64,000 bases of DNA from a candidate division KSB1 bacterium (GTDB taxonomy: Bacteria > Zhuqueibacterota > Zhuqueibacteria > Residuimicrobiales > Krinioviventaceae). Below are positions 4,012-62,892 of this stretch, piece by piece (the stretch's first letter is position 1; each line of letters begins with the position of its first letter). Below the pieces are notes generated by a model. The model saw only the letters and a list, made by a program, of their open reading frames with translations. It was not told the origin of the DNA and searched no databases. Both the position numbers and the translations under genes were made by a program. The stretch lies in contig JAXHMJ010000002.1 in NCBI GenBank assembly GCA_034521575.1, forward strand, positions 218,706 to 282,705, written 5' to 3'.

Positions 4012-5811
4012 ATGCCTGAACAATTCTCCACCAGCCCCGCCGGCGAAACATTTGCGTTACCCAAACCGGAAGAGTATCAACAGGAATTCGAGTTGTTGAA
4101 AACACGCGTCAACGCCGAACGCGACAAGGGCCGCGAAATTGTCGTGGTCATGGGCGTCGGGTTTGTCGGCGCGGTGATGGCGGCGATTGTCGCCGATACC
4201 ACGGACGACAGCGGCGAGCCGAGCAAGTTTGTCATTGGCATGCAGCGGCCCAGTGTGCGCAGTTACTGGAAGATTCCGCTGCTGAACCGCGGCGTGTCCC
4301 CGGTCAAGGCCGAAGACCCGGAAGTGGAGCCGATGATCGAGCGCTGCGTCAAAACCAAAAAGACCCTGATGGCCACCTATAGTTACGAGGTCCTGTCTCT
4401 GGCCGATGTGGTGGTGGTGGATGTGCAGTGCGATTACGTCAAACACGATCTGGGCGATGTGCACACCGGGCATACGGATATGGCAGCCCTGGAAGCGTCT
4501 ATCGGTGTGATCGCCGAGCATATTCAGCCCGAGGCCCTTGTGTTGATTGAAACCACGGTGGCGCCGGGAACCACGGAACAGGTCGCTTATCCCATTATGC
4601 GCAAGACGTTCAAAAAACGCGGAATCGATGCCGAGCCCCTGCTGGCGCACAGTTATGAACGCGTCATGCCCGGTCGCCATTACGTGGCCAGTATCCGCGA
4701 TTTCTGGCGCGTCTGCTCCGGTATCAACGAAACCGCCAAACAACGCGTGGTGCGGTTTCTCAATGACGTGCTCAACACCGACGAATTTCCGTTGACGGTC
4801 ATGGATCGGCCCATCGAATCCGAGACCGCCAAAATCGTGGAAAACAGTTACCGCGCCACCATTCTGGCGTTCATGGACGAATGGTCTCTGTTCGCCGAGC
4901 GCAACGGCGTCGATCTGCTCAAGGTCATCGAGGCGGTCAAGGTGCGACCGACGCACAGCAATATGATCTTTCCCGGACCCGGAATCGGCGGTTATTGTCT
5001 GCCCAAGGACGGCGGACTCGGCATGTGGGCCTACAAGCATATTCTCGGATTCGAAGATGATATTTTCAAGATCACGCCGCAGGCCATCAATATCAATGAC
5101 ACGCGCGGACTGCACGCCGCAGCCGTCACCCGCGATGCCATGCGCAATATGAACATCCCCATTGCCGCCGCCGATGTGCTGGTGCTGGGCGCCGCCTACC
5201 GCGAGGATGTCGGCGATACCCGTTACAGCGGCTCCGAAATCCTCATTCGCCGACTGACAGAAATGGGCGCCGAAATCCGTGTGCACGATCCGTATGTGGA
5301 ACACTGGTGGGAATTTGAAAAACAGGATACCTATCCGGCCGCCGGACACAGCAAAGGCCGTTTTTTCCGCAGTCAGGAGAAACTCAAGGATATTCAAATC
5401 GAACCTGATCTGACAAAAGCCCTCAAAGATGCCGAAGCCGTGGTCTTTGCCGTACGTCACGAACAATATCTGAACCTGGAACCGGATAGCGTGGTCAAAG
5501 CGATTGGTCAGCCAGCTGCTATAGTCGATTGTTTCGGCATTCTGGACGATGCCAAAATCAAACGCTACTTTGAACTCGGATGTGAAGTCAAGGGACTGGG
5601 ACGCGGGCATGTGAAGCGCATCAAGTCCAGGGTCCAAAAGTCGCGGTCTCTCAAAGTAAAACCTAAAGATGAAAGAAAGTTTCAAGATAAAATAGCTGTT
5701 GAAAATGGAAAAAGACAATATCGGTTGATTCTTTCTGGCAAGGCCGGGGAATCAGGTATTGAGCATTCGAGGTGTCGGTATGAGGTACGCGGTGCGGAGT
5801 ATGAGGGCTGA
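4012..5811 (+). CDS. UDP-glucose/GDP-mannose-type nucleotide-sugar dehydrogenase with repeat-derived tail
   Basis: A 599-residue protein preceded by a strong AAAGGAG site. It oxidises a nucleotide-sugar C6 alcohol to the uronate with two NAD+. The Rossmann loop GVGFVG is at residues 48-53, ETTVAPGTTE starts at residue 180, and GGYCLPKD holds the catalytic Cys at 329. It is longer than usual members (about 430 residues) because of a 40-residue N-terminal extension, longer loops, and about 62 C-terminal residues after GRGHVKRI. That tail is basic, low in complexity and read from AGTCCAGGGTCCAAAAGTC-like repeat DNA. The gene is GC-rich. The exact substrate (UDP-Glc, UDP-GlcNAc or UDP-ManNAc) cannot be told from sequence alone. 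Confidence 0.82.
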   Translation: MPEQFSTSPAGETFALPKPEEYQQEFELLKTRVNAERDKGREIVVVMGVGFVGAVMAAIVADTTDDSGEPSKFVIGMQRPSVRSYWKIPLLNRGVSPVKAEDPEVEPMIERCVKTKKTLMATYSYEVLSLADVVVVDVQCDYVKHDLGDVHTGHTDMAALEASIGVIAEHIQPEALVLIETTVAPGTTEQVAYPIMRKTFKKRGIDAEPLLAHSYERVMPGRHYVASIRDFWRVCSGINETAKQRVVRFLNDVLNTDEFPLTVMDRPIESETAKIVENSYRATILAFMDEWSLFAERNGVDLLKVIEAVKVRPTHSNMIFPGPGIGGYCLPKDGGLGMWAYKHILGFEDDIFKITPQAININDTRGLHAAAVTRDAMRNMNIPIAAADVLVLGAAYREDVGDTRYSGSEILIRRLTEMGAEIRVHDPYVEHWWEFEKQDTYPAAGHSKGRFFRSQEKLKDIQIEPDLTKALKDAEAVVFAVRHEQYLNLEPDSVVKAIGQPAAIVDCFGILDDAKIKRYFELGCEVKGLGRGHVKRIKSRVQKSRSLKVKPKDERKFQDKIAVENGKRQYRLILSGKAGESGIEHSRCRYEVRGAEYEG

Positions 5812-12706: not shown

Positions 12707-13048
12707 ATGACAAACATTACATTAAAAGAAACCCATGATCTGTTGGAAAAGCTGGCTGATTATGTCATGAACGAGGTGCCGACACGACGGGAGCTGGATA
12801 AACGTTTTTCAAACGTAAATAAAAGACTGGAGGGGCTGGAACAGGTAAAAGCCGAAAAGTCTGAACTCAAACGGGTTGATCGTAAAGCCGATATGCTTTT
12901 AGAGCCACAGGATGGAATGGTAAAATCCCTTGATATCATCCAAACGGAAATCAAGGCCATTTCCAGAACTCTTGACAATCACGAAAAACGGCTCGCTGAC
13001 CTTGAGGAGCATAATGTTAGATCAAGACCCGAGGTCCGGGGTACGTAA
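12707..13048 (+). CDS. Small coiled-coil protein, paralogue 2
   Basis: This 113-residue protein starts at ATG 12707 behind GTGGGGAAG. It shares TNITLKETHDLLEKLADYVMNEVPT with paralogue 1 but has a different middle (FSNVNKRLEGLEQVKAEKSE). The C-terminus AISRTLDNHEKRLADLEEHN is conserved. The pattern of conserved ends around a variable coiled-coil core repeats in all five copies. Function unknown. Confidence 0.6.
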   Translation: MTNITLKETHDLLEKLADYVMNEVPTRRELDKRFSNVNKRLEGLEQVKAEKSELKRVDRKADMLLEPQDGMVKSLDIIQTEIKAISRTLDNHEKRLADLEEHNVRSRPEVRGT

Positions 13049-21379: not shown

Positions 21380-22513
21380 ATGAATTTATGCGATAAAATT
21401 TACATCGCCGGCCACTCGGGCATGGTCGGATCTGCTCTTGTGCGGCGGCTGCGGAAAGACGGCTACCGCAATCTGGTTACGCGCACGCACACTGAACTGG
21501 ATCTCCTGGATCAATCCGCCGTCAATGAATTTTTTCAGCGCGAACAACCCGACTATGTCTTTTTAGCCGCCGCCAAAGTTGGCGGCATCCTGGCCAACAA
21601 CACCTACAGAGCTGAATTCTTGTACAACAATCTCATGATCACCGCCAACATCATCCATGCATCCAAACAGTCAGGCACCCAAAAACTGCTCAACCTCGGT
21701 TCCTCCTGCATTTATCCCAAACTGGCGCCGCAGCCGCTCAAAGAAGAATACCTCCTGACCGGTCCTTTGGAACTGACCAACGAACCCTACGCCATTGCCA
21801 AAATCGCCGGCATTAAACTCTGTGAGAACTATTACCGGCAATACGGCTGTGACTTTATATCCGTGATGCCCACCAACCTCTACGGTCCCAATGACAACTA
21901 TGACCTGCAAACCAGTCATGTGCTGCCCGCGCTGATCCGCAAGTTCCATCTGGCAAAATGCCTGGAAACAAACGACTGGGATGCAATACGGGCAGACCTG
22001 AACAAAAATCCGATAGGGAATGTAAGCGGAAACGCTGAACAAAGGGATGTTTTGAGTGCGCTGAATAAAGAAGGTATTGTGAACAGTCAAAAGGTTAAAG
22101 TCGAAAAGTCTGAACGTCAAATTCCCGACCTTCTGACTTTTGCACCTTCTGACGTTCCGACTGTGCATCTCTGGGGCAGCGGCTCGCCGCGCCGCGAGTT
22201 TCTCTATGTCGAGGACTTGGCCGATGCCTGTCTGCATATCATGCACAACGTCAGCGCTCCACAGTTGTACGACGACCTGAAGCAAACCCACATCAATATC
22301 GGCGCCGGAACCGACGTCACTATCAAAGACCTGGCCGAACTGATCCGCGAGATCACCGACTGTCACTGCAACATCCAATGGGACACCCGAAAACCCGACG
22401 GGACTCCCAGAAAGCTCCTAAACGTCGATCTCGCAACAAAGCTGCGGTGGCGGTATAAAACGGAACTGCGAAAAGGCATTGAACGTGCGTATGAAGCGTA
22501 TAAGAATGCTTGA
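21380..22513 (+). CDS. fcl: GDP-L-fucose synthase with repeat-derived insertion
   Basis: A 377-residue epimerase/reductase that makes GDP-L-fucose from the Gmd product. The start ATG 21380 gives MNLCDKIYIAGHSGMVGSAL with GxxGMVG at 11-17; the frame is open upstream in R-A DNA, which is ignored. LGSSCIYPK and Tyr137-x3-Lys141 form the active site. The NDWDAIRADLNKNP loop is normal for long Fcl proteins. It is followed by about 26 extra residues (235-260) encoded by R-E repeat DNA at 22082-22159 (AAGGTTAAAGTCGAAAAGTC ... CTTCTGACTTTTGC). The frame stays open, and the ending WRYKTELRKGIERAYEAYKN is normal. Confidence 0.92.
   Translation: MNLCDKIYIAGHSGMVGSALVRRLRKDGYRNLVTRTHTELDLLDQSAVNEFFQREQPDYVFLAAAKVGGILANNTYRAEFLYNNLMITANIIHASKQSGTQKLLNLGSSCIYPKLAPQPLKEEYLLTGPLELTNEPYAIAKIAGIKLCENYYRQYGCDFISVMPTNLYGPNDNYDLQTSHVLPALIRKFHLAKCLETNDWDAIRADLNKNPIGNVSGNAEQRDVLSALNKEGIVNSQKVKVEKSERQIPDLLTFAPSDVPTVHLWGSGSPRREFLYVEDLADACLHIMHNVSAPQLYDDLKQTHINIGAGTDVTIKDLAELIREITDCHCNIQWDTRKPDGTPRKLLNVDLATKLRWRYKTELRKGIERAYEAYKNA
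22082..22159. repeat. R-E repeat inside the fcl coding sequence
   Basis: The text GTTAAAGTCGAAAAGTCTG and CCTTCTGACTTTTGCACC with TTCTGACGTTCCGAC is the same word set as the intergenic R-E spacers (compare 3440-3500). Its two halves are roughly complementary. It adds 26 codons without a stop or frameshift. Confidence 0.8.
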
Positions 22514-34262: not shown

Positions 34263-34368
34263 AACTTCAGTGTTGGATGGTGAAAGATGTTTAAGTGTTT
34301 ATATGTTTAATCGTTTAACTGTTTAACCGTTCCAACAAATCAACGAATAAACAACTCAACACCACACT

Positions 34369-34740
34369 ATGCCCGATTATTTCAGGTTTGCATTTGAAAA
34401 ATTAAATGTTTGGCAAGAGGCCAGAGTGCTTTCCAAAAATGTTTACTTTGACACGAAAGATTTTCCGGGAGAGGAAAAGTTTGGGATAATCAATCAAATG
34501 CGAAGAGCTGCTGTTTCTGTTTGCTCAAATATTGCTGAAGGTTCGTCCAGAACATCAGCAAAAGACCAGGCACACTTTTATCAATTATCCTATAGCAGCT
34601 TGATGGAACTGATGAACCAAGTGATAATAGCCAATGACTTAGGTTATCTGAATAATGAAAAAGAAAACCAATATCGTTTAGATATCGAAAAGGTAGCAAA
34701 CATGCTTAACTCACTCCGAAAATCCCGCTTAAACAAATAA
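34369..34740 (+). CDS. Four-helix-bundle protein (23S rRNA IVP type)
   Basis: A 123-residue complete member: FAFEKLNVWQEARVLSKNVY, QMRRAAVSVCSNIAEGSSR, and FYQLSYSSLMELMNQVIIAN. It is flanked by AACAATTCAAC/AACAAATAAAC spacers at 34300-34360 and 34735-34775. This copy is closer to Bacteroidota proteins than the R-E-flanked copies at 3522 and 20208. Function unknown. Confidence 0.8.
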   Translation: MPDYFRFAFEKLNVWQEARVLSKNVYFDTKDFPGEEKFGIINQMRRAAVSVCSNIAEGSSRTSAKDQAHFYQLSYSSLMELMNQVIIANDLGYLNNEKENQYRLDIEKVANMLNSLRKSRLNK

Positions 34741-34777
34741 ACAATTCAACAAATAAACAATTCAACAAATCAACAAA
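34735..34777. repeat. AACAATTCAAC spacer repeat
   Basis: Tandem AAATAAACAATTCAAC words run between the four-helix-bundle gene and the aminotransferase gene. The same words occur inside that aminotransferase gene at 35190-35260 and 35706-35755. Confidence 0.6.
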
Positions 34778-35986
34778 ATGCCAACTAAATACCAACCCAT
34801 AATCTCATTCATCCGCGAGCTTTACAACGAGCCCGAAGCCTTCATCCCTCTCCACGCTCCAGTCTTTCAGGGCAACGAAAAAAAATACCTTAACGACTGT
34901 ATTGATTCAACCTTTGTTTCCAGCGTGGGAAAATACGTGGATCGGTTTGAGGAGATGGTGGCAGAATATACCGGAGCGAAAAAAGCCATAGTTACCGTCA
35001 ACGGCACGAATGCATTACACCTGGCTCTTCTGGTTGCAGGAGTAGAACCCGGCGACGAAGTCATCACACAGCCCTTAACCTTTATCGCCACAGCCAATGC
35101 AATTTCCTATGCCGGCGCTCAGCCCGTATTCATTGATGTTGATAAAGACACCATGGGCCTCTCACCCGAAGCTCTGAAAAAATGGCTAAACGATTCAACG
35201 ATTAAACAATTAAACAAACAAACAAAACAACAAGAAACAATAAACAAATCAACCGACCGTAAAATATCCGCCTGCGTCCCCATGCACACCTTCGGCCATC
35301 CCTGCCGCGTTGATGAAATTGTAGAAATCTGCAATGAATACAACATTCCAGTTGTAGAAGATGCAGCTGAAAGCCTGGGAAGTTTCTATAGAGACAAGCA
35401 CACAGGAACATTTGGTAAGATGGGCATATTAAGCTTTAATGGAAATAAGATACTTACAACCGGAGGCGGGGGAATGATTCTGACTGATGATGAGGAACTG
35501 GGAAACCATATTAAACACTTAACCACCCAGGCAAGAGTGCCTCACCCCTGGCAATACATACATGATGAAATAGGTTATAATTACAGAATGCCCAATATTA
35601 ATGCCGCACTTGGTGTTGCTCAAATGGAACAAATAGAGAAAATCATCCAAAACAAACGCCAAACCGCGCAGGCTTATACGACTTTCTTTAATTCAGGCAA
35701 ACCATTTAAAAACAAACAACAAACAACAAACAACAAACAAATAAAACACATCACCGAACCCCCAAATTCCCGTTCCAACTATTGGCTCAACGCCATATTA
35801 CTAAACAACAAACAGGAACGCGACGAATTTTTAAAATACACCAACGAAAACAGCATCATGATCCGCCCGGTCTGGCAGTTAATGAATAAACTTGAGATGT
35901 TTAAAGATTGCCAATGCGGCGATTTAACTAATTCTGAGTTTTTGGAAGATAGGATTGTTAATGTACCTAGTAGTATAAATTTATAA
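34778..35986 (+). CDS. legC: LegC/PseC-type aminotransferase with two repeat-derived insertions
   Basis: A 402-residue DegT-family enzyme. IPLHAPVFQGNEKKYL, STFVSSVGKYVDRFE and GTNALHLALLVAGVEPGDEV define the LegC group, and the PLP Lys is Lys224 in SFNGNKILTTGGGG. Residues 139-161 (STIKQLNKQTKQQETINKS) and a second segment, KNKQQTTNNKQIK, are Lys/Gln/Asn-rich and come from the AACAAACAA spacer repeat. Both fall in surface loops, and the frame stays open. It would transaminate the 4-keto sugar from a LegB-like enzyme, whose gene here is broken. Confidence 0.85.
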   Translation: MPTKYQPIISFIRELYNEPEAFIPLHAPVFQGNEKKYLNDCIDSTFVSSVGKYVDRFEEMVAEYTGAKKAIVTVNGTNALHLALLVAGVEPGDEVITQPLTFIATANAISYAGAQPVFIDVDKDTMGLSPEALKKWLNDSTIKQLNKQTKQQETINKSTDRKISACVPMHTFGHPCRVDEIVEICNEYNIPVVEDAAESLGSFYRDKHTGTFGKMGILSFNGNKILTTGGGGMILTDDEELGNHIKHLTTQARVPHPWQYIHDEIGYNYRMPNINAALGVAQMEQIEKIIQNKRQTAQAYTTFFNSGKPFKNKQQTTNNKQIKHITEPPNSRSNYWLNAILLNNKQERDEFLKYTNENSIMIRPVWQLMNKLEMFKDCQCGDLTNSEFLEDRIVNVPSSINL

Positions 35987-58015: not shown

Positions 58016-59104
58016 ATGCCTGATTTTACTTTAAAAACCTATCAAAAATTGATGCAATCGGTAGTCGATGCCCCGATTCTTACGTTTGAATCCTTTATTC
58101 AGAATCCACACCAATACGGCATCATCCTGCGTCATGACGTAGACCGGCGTCCGGAGTATGCGCTGGCCATGGCACAGCTTGAAGCGGAATATGGAATTCG
58201 AGGCACGTATTATTTTCGCATTGTGCCGGAGAGCTTTCAGCCGCATATTATCAGGCAGATTGCCGAGTTGGGGCATGAGATTGGGTATCATTATGAGGAT
58301 GTTGATTGGGTAGTAAGGAGTAGGAAGTATGGAGTAAGTAGAAAACAAGTTTTAAGTGATAAAGTGTCAAGTAGAAAGAAAGTTTCAAGTGTTAAGGAAA
58401 GAGTAGTAGGTAGTAGGAAGTATGGAGAAAGTAGGAAGACAGTTTTAAGTAGAAATAAAGTTTCAAGTTTTAAGGAAACAGAAAAGTTTGAGAAAGAGTT
58501 AGCTGATAGAGGAATTGAGAGTTTTGAGCGGAATTTGGCGAAGATGCGCGAGGTGGCGGATATTCGTACCATTTGCATGCACGGGAGTCCGTTGTCGAAA
58601 TGGGACAATCGGCTGCTTTGGGATTATTATGACTACCGGGAGCTGGGTCTGCTCGGCGAACCTTACTTTGATATTGATTGGAGTGAGGTTTTTTATTTGA
58701 CGGATACGGGACGTAGCTGGGATAATCGGACTGTGAGTGTGAGGGATAAAGTTTTCAGTGAAACAGTAGGTAGTAAGAAGTATGGAAAAAGTAGAAAAAA
58801 AGTTTCGAGTGTTAAGGAGAGAGTAGGTAGGGAAAAGTATGAAGAAAGTAGAAGGAAAGTTTCAAGTGTTAAGGAGAAAGTAGGTAGTAAGGAGTATGTA
58901 GTAGGTAGCGGGAACAAAAATTTGCGGTTTCGGCGGACCGGGGATATTGTTCAGGCGATTGAGGATGGGTGGTTTCCGGATAAAGCCATGATGACGGTGC
59001 ATCCGCAGCGGTGGACGAATAGCGTCTTACCGTGGATTAAAGAGTTGTTTTTACAGAATATTAAGAATGTGGTAAAAAGAGCACTGGTGAGAAGAAAGTT
59101 TTAG
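58016..59104 (+). CDS. Polysaccharide deacetylase-like protein with two repeat-derived insertions
   Basis: A 362-residue NodB-homology protein. The metal motif is HDVD (His40, Asp41, Asp43) with His87 and His92 in LGHEIGYHYED; RTICMHGSPLSKWDNR, YFDIDWSEVFYLTDTGRSW and MMTVHPQRWTN complete the family. Residues about 99-155 and 240-302 are foreign: Lys/Ser/Val/Arg repeats (RKYGVSRK, KVSSVKE, GSRKYGES) translated from AGTAGGAAGTATGGAG/AAGTTTCAAGTGTTAAGG repeat DNA. Without them the protein is about 240 residues, the normal size. Both insertions keep the frame and fall between motifs. Confidence 0.82.
   Translation: MPDFTLKTYQKLMQSVVDAPILTFESFIQNPHQYGIILRHDVDRRPEYALAMAQLEAEYGIRGTYYFRIVPESFQPHIIRQIAELGHEIGYHYEDVDWVVRSRKYGVSRKQVLSDKVSSRKKVSSVKERVVGSRKYGESRKTVLSRNKVSSFKETEKFEKELADRGIESFERNLAKMREVADIRTICMHGSPLSKWDNRLLWDYYDYRELGLLGEPYFDIDWSEVFYLTDTGRSWDNRTVSVRDKVFSETVGSKKYGKSRKKVSSVKERVGREKYEESRRKVSSVKEKVGSKEYVVGSGNKNLRFRRTGDIVQAIEDGWFPDKAMMTVHPQRWTNSVLPWIKELFLQNIKNVVKRALVRRKF
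58306..58486. repeat. First repeat insertion within the deacetylase gene (R-F)
   Basis: Words GTAGGAAGTATGGAG (twice), TTTTAAGTGATAAAGTG and AAAGTTTCAAGTGTTAAGG repeat within about 180 bp. They are open in the frame used and encode residues 99-155. Confidence 0.8.
58738..58918. repeat. Second repeat insertion within the deacetylase gene (R-F)
   Basis: The same word set as the first insertion (GTAAGAAGTATGGAAAAAG, AAGTTTCGAGTGTTAAGG, AAGTTTCAAGTGTTAAGG), about 180 bp, encoding residues 240-302. Related words occur outside genes at 60680-60720 and 62128-62150. Confidence 0.8.
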
Positions 59105-59212
59105 GGAAAACAGAGGACAGAGGGCGGAGACTGAGGGAGAGACTAAATGACTGAGAGACAAAGTGACTGAGAGATAATAATAAAATTATTCTAATTTATT
59201 ATTGGAGGGAAA
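59105..59212. repeat. AGAGGACAGAGG/GACTGAGGGAG spacer
   Basis: Short purine repeats (AACAGAGGACAGAGGGCGG, GACTGAGAGACAAAGTGACT) follow the deacetylase stop, and GGAGGGAAA ribosome-site sequence lies before GTG 59213. Confidence 0.5.
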
Positions 59213-59584
59213 GTGAAAATACGTTCACATCGGGAATTAGATGTTTACAAGCTTGCATTTGAATCAGCGATGAAGATATTTGAAATAACAAAAGGTTTCC
59301 CAAAAGAGGAAAAATATTCACTGATAGATCAAATGCGTCGTTCATCCAGGTCAGTGTGTTCAAATATTGGTGAAGCTTTTCGAAAACGGAGGTATCCCAA
59401 AGCTTTTGTCTCTAAATTATCGGATTCAGAGGGTGAAGCAGCTGAGACTCAAGTATGGCTCGATTTTTCGTTGAGATGTCAATATATAAACGAGGATTTT
59501 TATAAAGATCTCGATACAACATATGATCATATAATTGGAAAGATTGTCAATATGTCCCTTCAACCTGAAAAATGGAAATATTAA
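59213..59584 (+). CDS. Four-helix-bundle protein
   Basis: A 123-residue member with GTG start 59213 behind TGGAGGGAAA. IRSHRELDVYKLAFESAMKI, LIDQMRRSSRSVCSNIGEAF and FVSKLSDSEGEAAETQVWLD define the family subgroup that includes the gene at 59827. It lies between copies 1 and 2 of the repeated deacetylase 3' end. Complete. Confidence 0.8.
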   Translation: MKIRSHRELDVYKLAFESAMKIFEITKGFPKEEKYSLIDQMRRSSRSVCSNIGEAFRKRRYPKAFVSKLSDSEGEAAETQVWLDFSLRCQYINEDFYKDLDTTYDHIIGKIVNMSLQPEKWKY

Positions 59585-59624
59585 AATGTCTCTCTGTCTC
59601 TTTCTCTTTGTCTCTTTGTCATAA

Positions 59625-59826
59625 TTGGGCAGAATTTTAAGAATGTGGTATAAAGAGCACTGGTGAGAAGAAAGTTTTAGGGAAAACAGAGGTCAGAGGT
59701 CGGAGGTCAGAGGTCAGAGGACAGGGGGCAGCAAAGACTGACGTCTGATGTCTGTTTTCTGGAATCAGAGATACAGCAAATTTCCTTGACACCTGGATAT
59801 TTATAATGTGTAAATAAAGAGAGGGG
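59625..59826. repeat. Deacetylase 3'-end copy 2 with AGGTCAG/GATGTCTG repeat
   Basis: GGCAGAATTTTAAGAATGTG and AGCACTGGTGAGAAGAAAG copy the end of the deacetylase gene (59045-59105). AGGTCAGAGG repeats, GACTGACGTCTGATGTCTG and TTTCTGGAATCAGAGATAC follow, then GGGGGTGAG before the next gene. Confidence 0.7.
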
Positions 59827-60216
59827 GTGAGTTCTGTGAGGATTAATTCTGCAAAGGATTTGAAGGTTTATCAGAAAGCGTACCAACTCGCGATGGTGAT
59901 TTTTGAAATAAGCAAATCCTTTCCAAAGGAAGAAAAATATGCTCTAACGAATCAAATTCGAAGATCTTCGAGATCTGTTTGCCTAAATTTAAGGGAGGCA
60001 TGGGCGAAAAGAAGATATAAAGCTCATTTTATCAGTAAATTAACGGATTGTGATGGTGAAAATAGTGAAACTGAATCTTCGTTGGATTTTGCAAAAGACT
60101 GTGGATTTATAAGTGAGGAAACCCATCAAAAGCTAATTTCACAAAATCATGAGGTCGGAAAGATGCTGGGCTCCATGATAAAAAATCCAACCGGATTCAT
60201 AAAAACTGACGTCTGA
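59827..60216 (+). CDS. Four-helix-bundle protein
   Basis: A 129-residue member, GTG start 59827 behind GAGGGGGTGA. INSAKDLKVYQKAYQLAMVI, LTNQIRRSSRSVCLNLREAW and FISKLTDCDGENSETESSLD are close to the protein at 59213. The last residues (GFIKTDV) run into GACGTCTGATGTCTG repeat DNA. A copy with most of the gene deleted is at 63617. Confidence 0.78.
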   Translation: MSSVRINSAKDLKVYQKAYQLAMVIFEISKSFPKEEKYALTNQIRRSSRSVCLNLREAWAKRRYKAHFISKLTDCDGENSETESSLDFAKDCGFISEETHQKLISQNHEVGKMLGSMIKNPTGFIKTDV

Positions 60217-60450
60217 TGTCTGATGTCTGTTTTCTGGAATGGTTTGGCAGAATTTTAAGAATATTATAAAATTCATTTTTGTTCAGAGTAAAAGACTGAG
60301 GGAATGAGAGACAAAGCGACTGAGAGATAATAGCAAAATAGTTTGAAATATATTATGGGGGAAAAGTAAAAAAATTTGCATAAAAAGAAATAACTGTTTA
60401 ACTTTGCAGAGCTAACATTTTAGAATGTACAATCGGGAATAAGTGATTTT
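60217..60450. repeat. Deacetylase 3'-end copy 3 and spacer
   Basis: GATGTCTGTTTTCTGGAATG leads into GTTTGGCAGAATTTTAAGAA. GACTGAGGGAATGAGAGAC words and an AT-rich stretch follow before ATG 60451. Confidence 0.6.
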
Positions 60451-61643: not shown

Positions 61644-62289
61644 TTTGTAATCATGGAGAGTAACAAGAATACATACTTTTACATCTGGACTTGTTTGGCA
61701 GAATATGAAGAATGCTGTTAAGTATTTTATTGTGAAAGAACCAAAGACTGAGATACTGAGGGAAAAAAGTGACCTGAGTGACGAAGAGACTACGGGACGG
61801 AGGGACAAGAATATCGGAAGATTGGAAGGAAAAGAACGGAAGATTGGAAGCGAGGAATGTAGAGGGCAGAGGCTTGCCCTGTGAAATGTGAGTGTGCGAA
61901 CATATTTCACTGGGGTCGGAGATCAGGTCCGATCGTAGCTTGGCTGTTAAAAACCTTATTTTAGTCTTTTACACCTTAATAGCCTGAATATTAGCCATGA
62001 AGTAAACCTTATTACCTTATTTACCTTATTTGAGTATTTGAGATGAAAATAGAATATAATTTGCAGAAGCTTGCCCTGTGAAATGTGAGTGTTCGAACAT
62101 ATTTCACTGGGGCCGGAAGCCAGTAAGGAGTAAGAAGTAAGCAGTGGCGGGAGTGGGAGACGAAGGGACTGAGGGACTGAGAGACAAAGGGACGAAGAGA
62201 CGAAAGGACGAAGGGACAAGGCTCTAAGTCAAAAGGAAAAAGTAAAAAGTGAAAAGTTAAAAGAGAATAAGCCGATTGCAGATTTTCGA
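61644..62289. repeat. Deacetylase 3'-end copy 4, spacer repeats and a duplicated segment
   Basis: TTGTTTGGCAGAATATGAAG at 61688 is another copy of the deacetylase end. GACTGAGATACTGAGGG and GGACGGAGGGACAAG words follow. A segment GCTTGCCCTGTGAAATGTG, GAGTGT(G/T)CGAACATATTTCA and CTGGGG occurs at 61870-61915 and again at 62069-62115. No gene is supported; long minus-strand frames here are repeat-derived. Confidence 0.55.
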
Positions 62290-62530
62290 TTGCAGAATTC
62301 AGATTTAAAAGATTCAGCGAAAAATCCGCAATCCGATATCAGAAATCCGCAATCGACGCTTCGGTTTCGGCATACGAAGGATATTATTGCGGCGGCGCAG
62401 CGGGGGAAATTGCCGGAGCAGATAATGATTACGGTGCATCCGCAACGGTGGACTAATAATCCGATTTTGTGGGGGAAAGAGTTGGTTTGGCAGAATTTTA
62501 AGAACGTAATAAAGAAGGCTGTTGTTTTGA
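62290..62530 (+). pseudogene. C-terminal fragment of a second deacetylase-like gene
   Basis: TLRFRHTKDIIAAAQRGKLP and QIMITVHPQRWTNNPILWGK, then LVWQNFKNVIKKAVV match the end of the protein at 58016 (LRFRRTGDIVQAIEDG, MMTVHPQRWTN). The 5' part is replaced by AATCCGCAATCCGATATC words. It gives the source form of the repeated 3' end (WQNFKNVIKKA). Confidence 0.7.
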
Positions 62531-62892
62531 GGGGTCGGAGGGCAGAGGTCAGAGGACAGCGGTCAGAGATCAGAAAAAAGAGGTCAGTAAAAGATTGACG
62601 TCTGACGTCTGATGTCTGATGTCTGGACTGGTTTGGCAGAATTTTAAGAACGTAATAAAGAAGGCTGTTGTTTTGAGAGGTCGGAGGGGCGGAGGTCAGA
62701 GGGCAGCGGTCAGAGATCAGAAAACAGAGGTCAGTAAAAGACTGACGTCTGATGTCTGATGTCTGATCTCTGGTTTCTGGAATGGTTTGGCTGTTGGCAG
62801 TAGATAGCAAGAAGTATGGAGTAAATAGAGAGAGAATTTAAAGTGTCCAGAATACATAGAATTGTTGGTTATGAAAAAGGCGGGGGAAAGGT
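62531..62892. repeat. AGGTCAG/GATGTCTG repeats with deacetylase 3'-end copies 6 and 7
   Basis: Two nearly identical runs of about 150 bp: GTTTGGCAGAATTTTAAGAA, GTAATAAAGAAGGCTGTTG, CGGAGG...AGGTCAGAG, then AAAGACTGACGTCTG. Copy 7 keeps only GGAATGGTTTGGCTGTTGG. R-F words (GCAAGAAGTATGGAGTAA) end the stretch. Confidence 0.65.

Follow-up and report, generated by a model that had tools for sequence, protein, structure and literature searches.

Probable in-frame capture of small heptamer-built repeats by two loops of a polysaccharide deacetylase-like family

Rickettsia palindromic elements (RPE) are dispersed repeats that lie both outside genes and in frame within them, where the protein tolerates it, and the functional Nostoc tRNA-Leu(UAA) group I intron carries heptanucleotide repeats in a loop that tolerates them. 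Heptameric tandem repeats, described as STRR or long simple sequence repeats (LSSR), use genome-specific 7-nt words and are abundant in the intergenic DNA of cyanobacteria, Beggiatoaceae, Bacteroidetes, and xanthomonads; they are chiefly intergenic and under-represented in coding DNA (PMC4679880, PMC4692102). The amino-acid tandem repeats of Borg elements are repeats within open reading frames (ORFs) that give disordered segments, have independent origins, and evolve fast (PMC9879509). Here we describe two repeat segments in a polysaccharide deacetylase-like gene of a candidate division KSB1 bacterium (assembly GCA_034521575.1), located within 64,000 nt of contig JAXHMJ010000002.1 (positions 218,706 to 282,705; hereafter the window). 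We put at about 75% the probability that small dispersed copies of heptamer-built repeats entered two permissive loops of this enzyme, with selection keeping the stop-free, in-frame versions. The gene and its inserts are:

58016-59104, + strand: polysaccharide deacetylase-like gene, a putative divergent CE4 relative of 362 aa that contains both inserts; assigned from the ORF, family alignment, and structural matches
About 58307-58489, + strand: insert 1 (loop 1), residues 98-158, ~61 extra aa, two to three composite units
About 58751-58915, + strand: insert 2 (loop 2), residues 246-300, ~51 extra aa, two full units and a partial one

The ORF runs without a stop across all 362 codons, both repeat segments included, and the segments fall close to residues 99-155 and 240-302, where a first-pass annotation of the sequence had placed two in-frame repeats. 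The spacing from GHEIGYHY to TICMHG is 31 residues in 58 of 77 homologues versus 91 in the window protein, and insert 2 sits at a gap in the homologue alignment. The words named in that annotation do build the segments: AGTAGGAAGTATGGAG, allowing up to three mismatches, occurs nine times in the window against 0.28 expected, seven of them within the inserts, and AAGTTTCAAGTGTTAAGG occurs six times against 0.11 expected (five within the inserts). The heptamers AGTAGGA, AGTATGG, AAGTTTC, and AAGTGTT are mixed within a composite unit of ~57 nt. Insert 1 has units at 58310-58364, 58369-58397, and 58403-58450; insert 2 has copies of repeat family D1 at 58760-58816 and 58817-58873, which the unit model R1 also matches. 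A repeat search recovers six full or partial copies of the 57-nt family over both loops, 60 to 82% alike, and the in-gene units all share one phase, fitting 57 nt being a multiple of three. Exact head-to-tail heptamer copies do not occur in these inserts, and only one stretch rises above the array threshold. The repeat search found no inverted repeat inside them, and they have no Rfam match.

The enzyme itself appears unharmed. The motifs HDVD, GHEIGYH, MHGSP, and HPQRW (TVHPQRW in the first-pass annotation, which had called them untouched) are unbroken, each with columns invariant among 78 aligned homologues, and both inserts lie between motifs. Every family-invariant column is kept in the window protein, including D41, D43, H87, H92, H189, and H329, and a check for the CE4 Asp-His-His metal-binding motif finds HDVD and HxxxxH-type motifs invariant across the family. 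Pfam and NCBIfam searches with the window protein gave no match; the best Foldseek matches to a model of an insert-free family member are CE4 esterases, with TM-scores of only about 0.4, and on these models we regard the family as divergent, distant relatives of those esterases. The window protein, its catalytic motifs unbroken, is probably a working enzyme. Its own model has pLDDT values above 90 over most of the core and below 50 over much of the inserts, which are thus predicted to form disordered surface loops; the first-pass annotation had rightly described a gain of Lys/Ser-rich loops.

Copies of the composite unit are dispersed through the genome, extending the earlier remark that related words lie outside genes nearby. 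A sequence model of the unit has 23 matches at E≤0.1 in the 5.26-Mb genome, six in the deacetylase gene and 17 outside it; the latter lie in one truncated paralogue, at scattered sites on contig C2, in a cluster on contig C5, and at a few isolated places. All 23 are on the + strand of their own contig. The six in-gene units are all stop-free in the phase of the gene, with stops in most of the other frames, whereas of the 16 units found in neither this gene nor its truncated paralogue, 12 have stops in the same phase; where C5 units often have AAG TAA AAA, the in-gene units have AAG TAT GGA. Such a difference would be expected were the protein made and stop-bearing versions lost. Whole-genome searches replaced a comparison of insert words with the ~8-kb flanks, in which sharing was not conclusive, conserved gene parts showing a similar excess. 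The C5 cluster (G000 C5:478692-486702, part in L009) is dense in composite units and lies among small toxin-antitoxin-like and hypothetical genes.

The two loops are variable well beyond this genome. In the 78-sequence alignment, 18 sequences differ in length by six or more residues after window residue 102, and 29 do so after residue 251; outside these two loops there are only three isolated length exceptions, of which two fall in a third loop around residues 317-323. Many homologues from Bacteroidota, KSB1, Cloacimonadota, and Desulfobacterota hold unrelated words in these same loops, for the most part with a 7-nt pitch, and the words vary between genomes: KQETRNKKQET in L043, SSKFKVQSLKFK in L110, LKAQGSGLRAQG in L106, KMQDGKCKMQDAKYKMQ and EYRISNIEYRMSN in L107, PRPSALRPPPSAL in L048, and RGQRSEV repeats in the KSB1 homologue L031. 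Additional even sampling within the order of the L106 genome gave new cases, with EIRNQKSEIRNQK in L150, RRRDEETKRRRD in L160, and SSKFKVESSK in L158. Every insert searched exactly against its own whole genome has further copies there, the places numbering seven for L107, eight for L048, four for L106, two for L043, and ten for L066, each count taking in the insert itself. Some homologues carry pure arrays, (AAACAAG)4 in L043 and (GGCTCAG)4 in L106. Other inserts are not heptameric, with 8-nt words in L048 and L036 and, in L066, a 27-nt unit with an inverted repeat, present at ten genome places. We also note that loop 2 of L098 carries the reverse complement of its loop-1 words (L098:4086-4115 and 4377-4454), and that a single loop in L048 (4715-4810) has both orientations of one word.

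The idea of one repeat family inserting twice in one gene needs widening: the two inserts stand, but their sites are shared with other members of the family. The first-pass annotation had named homologues with the same loops as potential counterevidence, and extra loops do occur at the same positions; their words, however, differ by genome, and this combination strengthens the reading that repeats were inserted. What stands out is where the DNA is inserted and that it is heptameric, not a single word family, and this pattern suggests that the two loops are recurrent landing sites for repeats.

The family spans Bacteroidota, Desulfobacterota, KSB1, Cloacimonadota, and others. Nine other genomes from the host's own family have no deacetylase match, which makes the gene accessory; a genome of the same order (G021) has one, on the KSB1-labelled contig JAFGSU010000231.1. 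The window protein as sole query gave no match among genome contigs, and finding the homologues there required a four-sequence alignment as query.

Insert DNA pooled from genes other than that in the window has a lag-7 self-match of 40.8%, versus 28.0% after codon shuffling within inserts (z=16.2), and is also periodic at lags 14 (z=10.2) and 21 (z=8.2), with no comparable excess at the other lags tried. The lag-7 value is 0.503 for the window inserts, 0.408 for the other inserts, and 0.251 for conserved gene parts, and an independent sample of eight inserts gave z=9.8. Selection at the protein level is not expected to yield a 7-nt period, which argues that the loops come from heptameric DNA repeats; seven not being a multiple of three, the period points to an origin at the DNA level. 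Across the loci examined, deacetylase genes have ~29 strong heptamer arrays per 100 kb and other coding DNA ~1, against 43 outside genes, a density in deacetylase genes ~25-fold that of the coding DNA around them. The counts take in one array upstream of the start codon (L075), and L074, a deacetylase, is classed as other; that class also holds two cases in doubtful ORFs (at 62216 and 62527 in the window) and one in AT-rich sequence (L068). The contrast is not weakened when these assignments are corrected. The few arrays in other coding DNA include two surface-sugar genes, a WecB-like gene in L045 and a LegC aminotransferase gene in the window.

Partial copies of the deacetylase gene bear on its history:

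62290-62598 (L008:4996-5304), + strand: C-terminal deacetylase fragment, preceded at the loop-2 site by words of another family (AATCCGCAATC...)
59054-59129, + strand: 3' end of the deacetylase gene and following bases (repeat family D3), duplicated at 59630-59705 with 95% identity

The truncated paralogue lies 7.8 kb downstream (L008:8511-9067) and aligns to positions 17-363 and 834-1090 of a query that begins 16 bases ahead of the gene. The two aligned parts overlap by 40 nt inside the repeat, the segment from loop 1 to loop 2 is gone, the HGSP motif included, and the frame is broken, a deletion consistent with recombination between direct repeats in both loops. Another fragment (L008:14083-14177) terminates exactly at the loop-1 insertion point. 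Copies of the 3' end lie at window positions 59630-59705 and 60243-60271 and at L008:4400-4435, 5198-5225, and 12746-12829, with word arrays after each, as though the end of the gene belonged to a cassette that duplicates. In a tree built on the core columns, the window gene falls with moderate support into a largely Bacteroidales group. All members of this group have an extended loop 1; their words vary, some being shared (e.g., L036 and L048). The loop thus appears old in this group and its content turned over. The tree needs at least six state changes for loop 1 and at least 12 for loop 2; it is a quick tree with many open branches, and several sources are metagenome bins with possibly wrong labels.

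Repeat filling of loops extends beyond one enzyme, as seen in the second insert-bearing gene of the window:

34778-35986, + strand: LegC-family aminotransferase gene (TIGR04181, 556 bits) with two in-frame word inserts
35187-35257, + strand: word insert A of the aminotransferase, from comparison with solved relatives and 30 homologues
35703-35750, + strand: word insert B (CAAACAACAAACAACAAACAA), from a lag-7 scan, solved relatives, and homologues
34741-34777, with 34263-34368, + strand: intergenic words common to the aminotransferase inserts

Both inserts lie in loops absent from solved relatives, and they share seven 9-mers with the intergenic arrays just upstream, a number reached by none of 1,915 random window pieces. 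The words are of another kind than those of the deacetylase. Among 31 homologues the two insert loops are the only length-variable ones; inserts recur there, with word-like content in some (L181, L182). Periodicity in the homologue inserts peaks at 8 and 6 nt and is slight at 7, which limits the heptamer claim to the deacetylase. At window 21960-22160 a GDP-L-fucose synthase gene encodes ~65 residues that solved structures lack, degenerate words GTCAAAAGGTTAAAGTCGAAAAGTCTGAACGTC among them, and it is possibly a third case. The WecB-like gene of L045, a UDP-GlcNAc 2-epimerase, has an in-frame heptamer-word segment (L045:2806-2857) near its N-terminus.

Three small genes in the window (34369-34740, 59213-59584, and 59827-60216) code for four-helix-bundle proteins related to the 23S rRNA intervening-sequence protein (IVP; Avd-like), and they adjoin both the aminotransferase and the deacetylase genes. 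IVP genes also lie near the deacetylase in L036, L057, and L063, although the association is weak (4 of 27 loci versus 1 of 49). The window IVP genes have relatives in Bacteroidota with as much as 79% identity, which suggests that they moved between phyla. Word arrays flank these genes (59137-59172 and 59589-59622; 59687-59729, 59738-59765, and 60213-60240) and are partly inverted, with GACTGAGAGACAAAG... upstream and TCTCTTTGTCTCTTTGTCAT downstream. The IVP transcripts could form terminal stems like those of 23S rRNA intervening sequences; the RNA fold of the first flanked gene is not beyond chance (z -0.85).

We propose that small repeats particular to each lineage, heptamer or octamer arrays and sometimes palindromic elements, would spread through intergenic DNA by slippage, duplication, or copying, and would occasionally land in genes or expand there. 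In most genes they would wreck the product; in the two deacetylase loops they would yield a harmless disordered segment, and selection would retain only versions that preserve the frame and are free of stops. Within the window gene, 57-nt units may then have been duplicated, keeping frame, and copied between loops 1 and 2. The cost would be instability, with direct repeats in both loops permitting loss of the intervening segment as in the truncated paralogue. We infer arrival by insertion or copying, not growth in place, from the shared composite units and words, and neutrality of the loops from predicted disorder and conserved motifs. Three points weigh against this account. Long loops in several homologues (e.g., L039, L064, L084, and L092) have no 7-nt period, and a repeat origin is not demonstrated for every loop extension. 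The search turned up no closely related strain without the insert, and the insertion event itself is thus unobserved. Nor does the account explain the much heavier repeat load of the deacetylase family relative to other genes.

A credible, if unlikely, alternative is that an ancestral linker lengthened in place as short words slipped during replication, and later decayed, with no transfer from intergenic repeats. The pure arrays in L043 and L106 do resemble local slippage, and the extended loop 1 common to the tree group of the window gene looks like an old site with replaced content. However, the composite unit occurs with the same word order at unrelated places on C2 and C5, other genomes likewise have further copies of their own insert words, and 7-nt slippage shifts the frame, so that several steps would pass through broken frames. 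It is very unlikely that the deacetylase is a decaying pseudogene whose frame is open by luck in a repeat-rich region: fragments and a broken copy do lie in the neighbourhood, but there is no stop in 362 codons, every family-invariant column is kept, the in-gene units lack stops seen in non-coding ones, and many insert-bearing homologues are intact too. We consider it highly improbable that the arrays are contingency switches in which gain or loss of a single heptamer toggles a surface-sugar enzyme (phase variation). The 7-nt unit would shift the frame, and coding arrays are concentrated in genes acting on surface polysaccharide (the deacetylase, the WecB-like gene, and the window LegC gene), but the window arrays are degenerate and their 57-nt units keep frame, making slippage there unlikely, and other pitches (8 nt and 27 nt) occur at the same sites. 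Removal of the inserts from RNA before translation, as for 23S rRNA intervening sequences, is brought to mind by the two IVP genes directly downstream (59213 and 59827) and was rejected on the folding test (z -0.18 and 0.39, not above chance, with no pairing ends); it would also leave the kept frame and the avoidance of in-frame stops needless, and we regard it as extremely improbable.

A broader proposal, which we consider unlikely, is that the loops are conserved repeat-accepting sites of envelope-polysaccharide enzymes, refilled with host words after horizontal transfer. A loop that is disordered or able to switch frame might have a use, in diversifying or phase-varying surface sugar; alternatively, the words might be written by a mobile system with a link to the neighbouring IVP/Avd-like genes. 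A frame-switching role for the loops and a role for the neighbouring IVP genes are each possible. More generally, it appears that unrelated lineages have repeatedly turned small dispersed repeats into protein sequence, each time at the same positions of the structure. This is a natural experiment in turning non-coding repeats into disordered protein segments, which may be merely tolerated or useful, and the family is a ready dataset for insertion-tolerant sites, word turnover, and selection against stops.

The literature searched did not describe repeats within this deacetylase family or recurrent capture at the same protein sites. The inserts resemble STRR/LSSR in their 7-nt periodicity and their many dispersed, mainly intergenic copies; exact head-to-tail copies occur in, e.g., L043 and L106 and not in the window inserts. 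They differ in that a single enzyme family has taken them up in frame, at the same two loops, across several phyla. As in RPE, the window inserts are in frame and compatible with the structure, with an open frame and disordered segments in a confidently predicted core. The first-pass annotation had judged the family distinct from RPE, and this is upheld: there is no palindrome, RNA fold above chance, or Rfam match, and the deacetylase inserts are heptamer-built and recur at one site with unrelated families. Unlike 23S rRNA-type intervening sequences, the window inserts lack complementary ends that would form a processing stem. Like Borg repeats, they give disordered segments, but Borg repeats are perfect with units divisible by three, whereas here the basic word is 7 nt, degenerate (copies 60-82% alike), and shared with intergenic DNA, though the composite unit is still 57 nt. 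The Nostoc intron likewise has heptamer words in a permissive loop, there of a ribozyme and here of a protein under frame constraint. The repeats themselves are thus of a known kind (PMC4679880, PMC4692102), and the case is better described as the cross-phylum, recurrent colonisation of two enzyme loops.
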